A DNA stretch of 37,195 nucleotides from an uncultured Bacteroidota bacterium (lineage in GTDB: Bacteria > Bacteroidota > Bacteroidia > B-17B0 > Aurantibacillaceae). The notes beneath the pieces were generated by a model. That model was not told the origin of the DNA. It searched no databases and worked only from the letters and a program-made list of their open reading frames with translations. The stretch spans positions 1-37,195 of the forward strand of contig CAILKE010000039.1 in NCBI GenBank assembly GCA_903834765.1, given 5' to 3'. The position numbers were made by a program, and so were the translations under genes. Positions 3,446 through 12,327 of the stretch are shown piece after piece (the first letter of the stretch is position 1; every line of letters starts with the position of its first letter).

Positions 3446-3757
3446 TTATTCTTTTAATCTATTTAATACATCAATATCAACGGTTTTGAAATTACGATAC
3501 ACCATTGCTAAAATAGCCAAGCCTACTGCAACCTCTGCAGCAGCAACCGCCATAATAAAGAACACAAATACTTGTCCCGAAGCATCATTGTGCAATGTTG
3601 AAAATGCTACCAATAATAAGTTGACCGCATTAAGCATTAATTCAATACACATAAAAACAATGATCGCATTTCTACGAGCCATTACGCCAACTGCTCCAAT
3701 GATAAACAATACTGCGCTAAGCATAATATAATAATTGATAGGAATTCCGTTTAACAT
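3446..3757 (-). CDS. nuoK: NADH-quinone oxidoreductase subunit K (NuoK)
   Basis: Small membrane subunit of complex I involved in proton translocation. It has 103 residues, the standard length, and three predicted membrane helices. The second carries [16 protein letters not shown], with the conserved glutamate of the family, and the C-terminus has [16 protein letters not shown]. Its ATG lies 6 bases past the inner-operon inverted repeat at 3764-3793, so a four-helix-bundle gene separates it from nuoJ. In most genomes nuoJ and nuoK are directly adjacent. Its translation may therefore depend on what happens to the RNA of the inserted element. Confidence 0.96.
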
Positions 3758-3763
3758 ATTTAT

Positions 3764-3793
3764 TTAAGATTTAAGAAGTTAGATTTAAGATTT
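3764..3793. repeat. 30-bp inverted repeat arm, nuoK side
   Basis: Matches the reverse complement of 4163-4192 with one mismatch. It can be read as degenerate heptads (ttaa, gatttaa, gaagtta, gatttaa, gattt), the unit also found in tandem before nuoJ and nuoH. It includes the stop codon (3785-3787) of the four-helix-bundle gene. Confidence 0.85.
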
Positions 3794-4156
3794 TGCATTC
3801 TTTATATTATTACGAGCAGTCTTCAAAGAAGATGCGAAAATAGCCGTTAGTTCATTACTTTCATTTAAAAGTTTTTTAAGTTTATTTGCATCAATCGTTT
3901 CATTTGTATCCTGAATAATTTCATACCAAAAATTTGATTCGTCAGATTCTTCTAAGACAATATTTAATTTTGAAACAAATTCAGCAGTTGAACGACCCCT
4001 CAACGCTGCTCTATAATTAGCAGCTACAGAAGTCGACGATTTAATTATTTGATAAGAAATAACATCGTTTGCTTTTGATTTAGGCAATTCATTAATAAAG
4101 CGAATTGTATCAACTGCAAATTGTTTTGTTCTTATTTTTAAATCTATTTTGTCCAT
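3785..4156 (-). CDS. Four helix bundle protein (23S rRNA intervening-sequence family)
   Basis: A 123-residue soluble, mainly helical protein. The stretch SYQIIKSSTSVAANYRAA, followed by RGRSTAEFVSKLNIVLEESDESNFWYEI, is the signature of the four-helix-bundle / S23 family first seen as ORFs in intervening sequences of 23S rRNA. Members are common in Bacteroidota genomes and have no established biochemical role; the fold forms oligomers and may bind nucleic acid. Here it lies between nuoJ and nuoK, same strand, within 30-bp inverted repeats. It is not a complex I subunit. The ATG at 4156 follows the repeat arm by 6 bases and has no visible Shine-Dalgarno. Family assignment is firm; function is unknown. 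Confidence 0.93.
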   Translation of the reverse strand: MDKIDLKIRTKQFAVDTIRFINELPKSKANDVISYQIIKSSTSVAANYRAALRGRSTAEFVSKLNIVLEESDESNFWYEIIQDTNETIDANKLKKLLNESNELTAIFASSLKTARNNIKNAKS

Positions 4157-4162
4157 TTATTT

Positions 4163-4192
4163 AAATCTTAAATCTAACTTCTTAATTCTTAA
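4163..4192. repeat. 30-bp inverted repeat arm, nuoJ side
   Basis: Partner of 3764-3793 in opposite orientation, 29 of 30 positions matching. It overlaps the 3' end of nuoJ and includes its stop codon (4182-4184), so the repeat itself encodes the last residues of NuoJ. In the transcript the two arms could pair into a 30-bp stem closing a loop that holds the four-helix-bundle gene. Confidence 0.85.
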
Positions 4193-4704: not shown

Positions 4705-4737
4705 GATTTAAGATTTAAGATTTAAGATTTAAGATTT
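4705..4737 (-). repeat. Tandem heptad repeat in the nuoJ leader (4.7 units)
   Basis: Four full copies of gatttaa plus gattt on the plus strand (TTAAATC in the sense direction), ending 4 bases before the nuoJ ATG. The bases just upstream in sense (TAAGCGAAAAATC) are shared with the nuoH leader repeat at 6545-6584. Because 7 is not a multiple of 3, three units place TAA in all three frames of either strand. Confidence 0.9.
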
Positions 4738-4788
4738 TTCGCTTAGATCAAAATCTGTTTATTTATAATTAGTTTTTATTTTTTAAAA

Positions 4789-6544: not shown

Positions 6545-6584
6545 GATTTAAGATTTAAGATTTAAGATTTAAGATTTAAGATTT
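6545..6584 (-). repeat. Tandem heptad repeat in the nuoH leader (5.7 units)
   Basis: Five full copies of gatttaa plus gattt, ending 6 bases before the nuoH ATG, in the same orientation as the nuoJ array. The two arrays share the sense-upstream flank TAAGCGAAAAATC, so they look like copies of one element and not independent slippage. One further lone unit (cttaagatttaag) lies just upstream of the nuoB ATG near 12277-12289. Confidence 0.9.
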
Positions 6585-9792: not shown

Positions 9793-9814
9793 TCTTATTG
9801 AAATTTTAAATTTT

Positions 9815-9906
9815 AAATGATAAATGATAAATTTTAATTACCCTTTTTTCATCTAAAATGTTTTACTTTAATTAATTTAAAATTTATAATCTAACATTTA
9901 TCATTT
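9815..9906. repeat. Inverted repeat pair with a 43-base loop between nuoD and nuoE
   Basis: Arm 9815-9835 (aaatgataaatg-a-taaatttt) matches the reverse complement of arm 9879-9906, which has the same two ends (aaatgataaatg and taaatttt) but 7 extra bases between them. The 43 bases between the arms have no gene. The plan resembles the inverted repeats around the four-helix-bundle gene, without a gene inside. Low complexity makes some matching expected by chance. Confidence 0.5.
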
Positions 9907-11639: not shown

Positions 11640-11661
11640 TTTTAGTTTTTAGTTCTTAGAA

Positions 11662-11687
11662 TTTAGTTTTTGATATTAAAAACTAAA
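11662..11687. repeat. AT-rich hairpin between nuoB and nuoC
   Basis: Stem of 10 bp (tttagttttt with aaaaactaaa) around a 6-base loop gatatt. The neighbourhood also repeats ttagttttt and ttagttctta. In the transcript it would sit about 22 bases before the nuoC ATG. It might affect RNA stability; there is no T-tract, so it is not a terminator. Confidence 0.4.
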
Positions 11688-11707
11688 AATTCAACATTAA
11701 ACATTCT

Positions 11708-12271: not shown

Positions 12272-12327
12272 TTTAACTTAAGATTTAAGATGTTGATGCC
12301 TTACTATTTAAATCAACCCTTTATTTA

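Follow-up and report, generated by a model that had tools for sequence, protein, structure and literature searches.

The function and origin of the intervening sequences (IVSs) of rRNA genes are called unclear in passages of PMC4990558, where a mobile element is among the proposals. The 23S rRNA IVS of Coxiella described in those passages measures 428-444 nt, has terminal inverted repeats forming a 28-bp stem and contains an open reading frame (ORF) of the intervening-sequence protein (IVP) family. Excerpts of PMC11270868 report IVP ORFs in 16S and 23S insertions of bacteria of the candidate phyla radiation, and part of PMC10053308 relates Avd, a protein of diversity-generating retroelements (DGRs), to the IVP family PF05635. 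Here, we describe a segment of like architecture, 429 nt long and with terminal inverted repeats of 30 nt around an IVP gene, which lies in the gap between the complex I genes nuoJ and nuoK and not in a helix of 23S rRNA. It is located in contig CAILKE010000039.1 (C39; 37,195 nt, the whole stretch analyzed, hereafter the window) of the 3.6-Mb genome of an uncultured Aurantibacillaceae bacterium (Bacteroidota; GCA_903834765.1, hereafter G000), whose nuo operon is on the minus strand. We propose, with a probability of about 60%, that this segment represents one of the copies of a dispersed genetic element, in which an IVP gene is placed between inverted arms of subfamily-specific heptads and which occupies operon spacers in sense orientation.

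The two arms (Table 1) are complementary at 97% of their positions, lie 369 nt apart and head the 25 inverted pairs listed out of 87 in the window. They enclose a single ORF and contain two stop codons, those of nuoJ (4182-4184) and of the IVP gene (3785-3787), so that the original prediction was right about the arms, the single gene of the IVS family between them and the position of both stops. Its proposal that an IVS-like unit resides in a protein-coding operon was likewise borne out; the 23S rRNA gene of G000 (2016 nt, model positions 15-2044, the remainder lying beyond the contig end) has no insert of the size of the element. When folded as RNA, as the prediction had called for, the segment reached -98.9 kcal/mol (z -6.24) with the arms closed. 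The upstream arm is composed of 7-nt units, of a kind that matches other members of the same IVP subfamily.

The encoded protein matched PF05635 (E 7.4e-13, 49.1 bits versus a cut-off of 33.8) and TIGR02436 (E 1.1e-20, 73.9 bits versus a cut-off of 24); no other profile exceeded its cut-off, so the gene-bearing copy contains no transposase. The AlphaFold2 model is a four-helix bundle (pLDDT 94), for which Foldseek retrieved 2RLD (E 7e-6) and 2GSC (TM 0.83 by target length), both structures of five chains, as well as Avd of DGRs (8UB7 and 4DWL; E 0.02-0.16, TM 0.75-0.78 by target length). A reference title in PMC10053308 presents 2GSC as an assembly of five four-helix bundles. The IVP gene is under purifying selection, with dN/dS values of 0.07-0.12 against three orthologues; in the window's group, the range was 0.02-0.12 for IVP, 0.05-0.13 for nuoJ and 0.02-0.08 for nuoK.

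We scored arms by local alignment of the upstream flank of each IVP gene to the reverse complement of its downstream flank (match 1, mismatch -1.5, gap -2.5). Initially, 95 loci from G000 and its relatives were scored, and rescoring with ATG starts only dropped 5 of these 95 loci, 5 of 29 loci from the family and 12 of 80 GTDB-wide loci (labeled Bacteroidota, Verrucomicrobia, Planctomycetes, Deltaproteobacteria, Acidobacteria and others), leaving 90, 24 and 68 loci, respectively. Two loci without an IVP ORF (L013 and L102) and five duplicates were left out. Sixty loci were fetched by place: 59 were taken in list order among the matches listed, and G033:C319 was picked because it lies in a nuo cluster. 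The sets include orthologues, and the loci are not mutually independent.

G000 itself contained seven loci of the family above cut-off, with arm scores of 27.5 (window), 26.5, 21.5, 20.5, 14.0, 12.5 and 11.5, and thus has the additional arm-plus-gene units that the prediction had suggested looking for. Scores of at least 15 were found in 54 of the 90 relatives' loci, 17 of the 24 family loci and 48 of the 68 GTDB-wide loci, versus 1.4%, 10.6% and 5.6%, respectively, when flanks were swapped between loci, and 0 of 196 swaps made within one genome. At the weaker score of 12, 75 of the 90 relatives' loci passed, compared with 4.7% of swapped flanks and 10% of within-genome swaps. We also scored 359 genes from 437 kb of G000 (window included), which replaced an earlier control set drawn from short loci (7 usable genes, one scoring 28). 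The window IVP gene ranked highest; 6 of the 359 genes reached 15 (this gene, the adjoining nuoJ, a second IVP-family gene and three others) and 50 reached 12. The arms are therefore more alike than random AT-rich spacers, as had been supposed. Together, these results show that the window segment is not isolated and that arms and gene form one unit, found again with the same heptads at sites unrelated to one another.

An Rfam scan of 20 of the 80 GTDB-wide loci detected no 23S rRNA. Two individual loci are recorded here for their own features. Around G000:C4:152962-153352 (L010), a frameshifted IVP gene still sits within moderately matching arms, and in a planctomycete metagenome-assembled genome (L211) the IVP gene starts about 50 nt after a small signal recognition particle RNA gene on the same strand.

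Among the periods tested (4 to 13), 7 was the best in 52 upstream and 49 downstream flanks of the 90 relatives' loci and in 38 and 28 flanks, respectively, of the 68 GTDB-wide loci, versus 34 of 330 upstream regions of G000 genes. The excess was modest when runs of 4-mers were counted (51 at period 7 versus 10, 15 and 7 at periods 5, 8 and 10, with 54 and 56 at the codon periods 6 and 9). The upstream arm contained more G than C at 140 of 155 loci and less at 7, and the arms ended at a median distance of 32 nt ahead of the conserved domain and 3 nt past the stop codon. The repeated core differed between clusters of IVP proteins: GATT(T/G) in the window's cluster (76 loci), GTTT-like in a 26-locus cluster and GGCA in a 9-locus cluster, with no single clear core in a 12-locus cluster. 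GATT was present twice, 7 nt apart, in 33 of the 76 loci of the window's cluster (0.4 in shuffled sequences) and in 27 of its 58 GTDB-wide members, versus 1 of 26, 0 of 12 and 0 of 9 loci of three other clusters. Heptads bearing G and C, such as AGTTGGC, occurred in other loci.

For pairs of loci without related neighbors, as judged by blastp on 600-nt flanks, mean arm similarity rose with IVP identity, from 5.3 (below 20%) to 6.7 (40-50%), 7.9 (50-70%) and 16.3 (at least 70%, n = 23). The neighbors of 12 loci were read, and one pair counted as unrelated (L052/L123) sits in fatty-acid gene clusters about one gene apart. The same GGATTGA heptads, alongside IVPs that are 76-80% identical, were found in two Saprospiraceae loci, where the neighbors are an M23 peptidase gene and hflX, and in two further Bacteroidota loci, where they are lysS and ddl (all names assigned by reading the proteins). 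Since similar heptads accompany similar IVPs at differing sites and arm similarity rises with identity, we take arms and gene to be one entity for which the site is of secondary importance. Judged from these sequences, the core depends more on the protein subfamily than on the site, GATT being the core of the window's subfamily in different phyla. A block test of core versus variable columns was weak (contrast 0.195, null 0.176). In gene-bearing loci, in-register identity in the variable columns was 76%, versus 38% after sliding, which favors true copies but comes from alignments selected by score and hence biased. A transposon with one fixed terminal repeat was rejected, as the arms vary among loci and subfamilies.

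In 94 of 95 loci, the gene upstream of the IVP gene shared its strand, versus a baseline of 74% for G000 genes (binomial 1e-11), and in 84 of 95 both neighbors did, versus 55% (binomial 3e-12). The original prediction had proposed a search for empty nuoJ-nuoK sites in relatives, and these were found: in 20 genomes of the genus, the junction was readable in 18, of which 4 (G000, G005, G011 and G015) contained the element and 14 had no IVP gene. The four carriers were interspersed in a tree of nuoJ, nuoK and nuoL. G005 and G019 are 94-97% identical in the 550 nt preceding the junction and 95-98% identical in the 400 nt following it, the element being present only in G005. The nuoJ end of G019 (SKETTN) is near that of G003 and G004, while a shortened end is common to G005, G011 and G015; a gain of the element by G005, through insertion or import, is therefore most likely. 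Carriers are not alone in having a short nuoJ end, since G008 has one (Table 1) without an IVP gene; its nuoJ-nuoK spacer (L030) contains heptads like those of the downstream arm before nuoK, and this junction may be a site that lost the IVP gene. In a sister genus, at least 10 further genomes had an IVP gene between nuoJ and nuoK. Three of these IVPs were 71-73% identical to that of the window, and the other seven (46-52%) were accompanied by ATTTACA-like heptads. A different, G+C-rich inverted repeat, CCCCAACCCCTCC ... GGGGTTGGGGG, was seen at the nuoJ-nuoK junction of G001 (L023), a closely related genome that lacks the IVP gene.

Units with the same arms but without a gene also exist. Among the nuo spacers read in 16 genomes, several contained two arms separated by a short stretch without a gene, for example, in nuoB-nuoC and nuoC-nuoD of G005 and in nuoB-nuoC and nuoI-nuoJ of G060; some genomes, such as G003 and G016, had few or none. 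The pattern ATTKACR was present in 33 of 87 genomes of the family, with 160 matches versus 8 for the reversed control, and ATTKACR arms were found both around IVP genes and in gene-less hairpins, as in the shared ends of miniature inverted-repeat transposable elements (MITEs). All 9 genomes with a strong match to the cognate IVP had the pattern, versus 24 of the 78 others (Fisher 8e-5, uncorrected for kinship; the cognate-IVP probe was approximate, and the cut-off for strong, E <= 1e-38, was chosen after the list had been viewed). We hand-picked 20 ATTKACR regions of 3 kb from G060, G029, G101, G074 and G069, excluding the surroundings of IVP genes; one of them (L292) was a nuo spacer already present in L277. 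Eighteen of the 20 were intergenic; both neighbors were known for 16, and in 15 of these they shared one strand. The 20 regions yielded no IVP ORF. In G029:C34 (L306), two ATTKACR arms about 300 nt apart surround three copies of an unrelated tandem repeat of about 90 nt, with no IVP gene.

The window's own nuo operon contains gene-less heptads as well (Table 1). The link of the arm unit to the gene has to be qualified here, since the (GATTTAA) unit is also present without a gene in other nuo spacers of the window; those before nuoJ and nuoH are mostly runs of the downstream-arm heptad. By reading, the copy between nuoD and nuoE has the heptad type of IVP element L008, which lies in another operon of G000. 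The nuoB-nuoC spacer (11640-11707) contains GTTTTTA and AACTAAA heptads like the arms of IVP element L005 of the same genome. At the contig end (36164-37195), five direct repeats of 195 nt occur at a spacing of 207-213 nt and are 61-90% alike.

Table 1. Arms, genes and heptad stretches in and around the nuoJ-nuoK segment of the window
Feature	Position	Strand	Remarks
Upstream arm (5' on nuo mRNA)	4163..4192	-	TTAA GAATTAA GAAGTTA GATTTAA GATTT; holds nuoJ stop; inverted repeat 29/30
IVP gene (PF05635/TIGR02436), 123 aa	3785..4156	-	Profile matches, AlphaFold2 model, Foldseek, dN/dS
Downstream arm (3' on nuo mRNA)	3764..3793	-	Reverse complement of upstream arm; holds IVP gene stop
nuoJ, 172 aa	4182..4700	-	176-180 aa in most empty-site genomes of the genus; also 172 aa in G008
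nuoK	3446..3757	-	
Gene-less tandem heptads before nuoJ	4705..4739	-	TTAAATC (mRNA strand)
Gene-less tandem heptads before nuoH	6545..6584	-	TTAAATC
Gene-less arm pair, nuoD-nuoE spacer	9808..9906	-	GATAAAT type; arms 39 nt apart
Short heptad stretch before nuoB	12278..12289	-	

In the mechanism that we favor, the IVP gene would be read from the transcript of its host operon, and its product, a five-subunit assembly in solved relatives, would recognize the heptad cores, either in DNA or in a single-stranded hairpin; we infer this recognition because the cores are conserved across phyla. The protein could then act in trans to spread gene-bearing and gene-less copies with an enzyme that the element does not encode. 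In this view, the IVSs of ribosomes would derive from such elements as copies that landed in rRNA genes, perhaps one landing place among those of a dispersing element. A stem in the nuoJ-nuoK mRNA may form and be cut, as a consequence of the arms and not as what keeps them alike.

Several observations weigh against a dispersed element. No movement has been observed and no target duplication was readable; between G005 and G019 the junction sequence is replaced, with no clean duplication by eye. Profile searches and Foldseek matched the IVP protein to no nuclease or transposase family. Recurrence between nuoJ and nuoK in at least 14 of 87 genomes could also fit a useful resident gene with losses. 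The pairing of pattern and protein has exceptions, as G029 and G101 have 16 ATTKACR matches each and no cognate IVP match at E <= 1e-20, another protein cluster (cluster 14) also has the GATT core (5 of 9 loci) and 43 of the 76 loci of the window's cluster do not have it in strict form. Finally, arms and gene traveling together by descent would likewise link protein and heptad among IVPs of high identity. Recognition is favored only by the core conservation seen at about 45-55% identity, which comes from mutually dependent loci.

We considered whether the IVP is instead part of a resident, non-mobile regulatory module, an assembly that binds heptads with one subunit each and regulates both its own operon and, by way of gene-less heptads, further genes. 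TRAP binds RNA repeats in this manner, with one subunit per unit. The cores repeated every 7 nt and differing between subfamilies, the arm ends close to the gene, a purifying selection about as strong as that on nuoJ and nuoK and the presence of the same heptads in several nuo spacers of one operon would all suit such a module, and heptamer repeats before start codons are proposed as translational control sites in part of PMC4679880. However, presence is patchy among close relatives, the units lie in unrelated operons with no tie to one pathway seen, and a single-stranded RNA site needs no inverted pairing of two arms. We therefore regard a regulatory module as unlikely.

Somewhat less likely still is an IVS at the mRNA level, in which the arms would be kept because they form a target of RNase III in the nuo transcript, a stem whose cleavage, like that in 23S rRNA, would split the nuoA-J message from that of nuoK-N. 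Besides the strong fold of the window segment and the sense orientation in operons, parts of PMC4990558 favor it by describing cleavage by RNase III of rRNA IVSs with a 28-bp stem. Within group A (the window's orthologues), arms also fit their own partner best (19.75 versus 16.25, 1 of 24 permutations), and by reading there are two double compensatory changes between G000 and G005. In contrast, groups B and C showed no such excess within loci, B being reversed (6 of 6 permutations) and C showing none (2164 of 5040), so covariation was rejected as proof of an RNA stem. Selection for such a stem should leave more G-U than A-C among imperfect pairs, but the arm mismatches of 155 loci comprised 120 G-U and 131 A-C (G-U share 0.41-0.54), unlike the 3 G-U and 0 A-C of 13 tRNA acceptor stems, a small control with the register set for most Watson-Crick pairs. 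Moreover, 16 gene-less hairpins avoided complementarity at the fourth heptad position (7 of 32 versus 16.6 expected, 2 of 2000 shuffles), with the same tendency at the seventh (13 of 32 versus 17.9 expected, 114 of 2000 shuffles). Pairing is thus not preserved at the variable position of these hairpins. Near-perfect palindromes with short loops are unstable in bacteria, which may be why pairing is avoided.

Because A-C mismatches occur as often as G-U and pairing is avoided at one variable position of gene-less hairpins, we consider it more likely that the arms serve as ends of the element or as sites for a protein than that they are an RNA stem under selection. A stem kept for processing was not supported as an explanation for the arms; the original prediction was correct on the element but less so on the RNA mechanism. 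The nuo mRNA may nevertheless be cut at the window stem, since this stem would be strong in RNA and group A shows arm fit with compensatory changes. Chance similarity of AT-rich, low-complexity spacers has a nonzero background, visible at score 12 among G000 genes and within-genome swaps, but it is ruled out by the flank-exchange controls at score 15 and by G+C-bearing heptads in other loci, and its probability is negligible.

Our finding suggests a widespread, little-described kind of dispersed genetic element. Such an element could account for 7-nt repeats in bacterial operon spacers and for the odd presence of IVP genes in functionally unrelated operons, for example, cas loci. With many copies outside rRNA that have definable ends, with gene-less derivatives and with a link between protein and ends, the question of IVS function and origin becomes testable. 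For annotation, some genes labeled "four helix bundle protein" in operons may be passengers and not operon components. More tentatively, and with somewhat less than even odds, IVP genes would be the protein part of a widespread unnamed class of transposase-free, heptad-armed units, in which a multimeric protein reads a subfamily-specific 7-nt code and a borrowed enzyme spreads both kinds of copies through operon spacers; ribosomal IVSs, the IVPs of cas loci, heptamers before start codons and Avd would then be one story.

Compared with the 23S rRNA IVS, which it resembles in size, ends and protein family, the window element differs in its location in an mRNA operon, its subfamily-tied heptad arms, its gene-less copies and the lack of a sign of selection on an RNA stem. 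REP/RAYT systems and MITEs with their insertion sequences similarly combine short, dispersed, imperfect inverted repeats, often intergenic, with a gene-bearing copy that has the same ends. Unlike these, the element described here encodes no transposase but a four-helix bundle, which is not a Y1 (HUH) RAYT, and its ends are tandem heptads with a subfamily-dependent core. The likeness to DGRs lies in the fold shared by Avd and the IVP model. Unlike in a DGR, no reverse transcriptase was found in the element's own contig; the only RVT_1 match of the genome (at C4:189634) lies in L291 on another contig (G000:C4:189478-190491), a reverse transcriptase of 338 aa, retron-like as read and not tied to the element. 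The TAACTGA heptamer direct repeats of Beggiatoaceae, cyanobacteria and some Bacteroidetes, as portrayed in parts of PMC4679880, are also 7-nt repeats in spacers just before start codons, with one set in reverse orientation directly after a stop codon; none of the terms 23S, intervening, S23 and four helix appears in that paper. Our literature searches, which mostly did not extend to subscription journals, turned up no published account joining IVP genes, heptad arms and gene-less copies. Passages of PMC3936711 describe 23S_rRNA_IVP genes in cas loci, where an IVP gene likewise lies between two operon genes, cmr3 and cmr2, and list it among CRISPR-associated functions, while the present data suggest entry into many kinds of operons. 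There is a fair chance that heptad-armed IVP elements deserve a class of their own.
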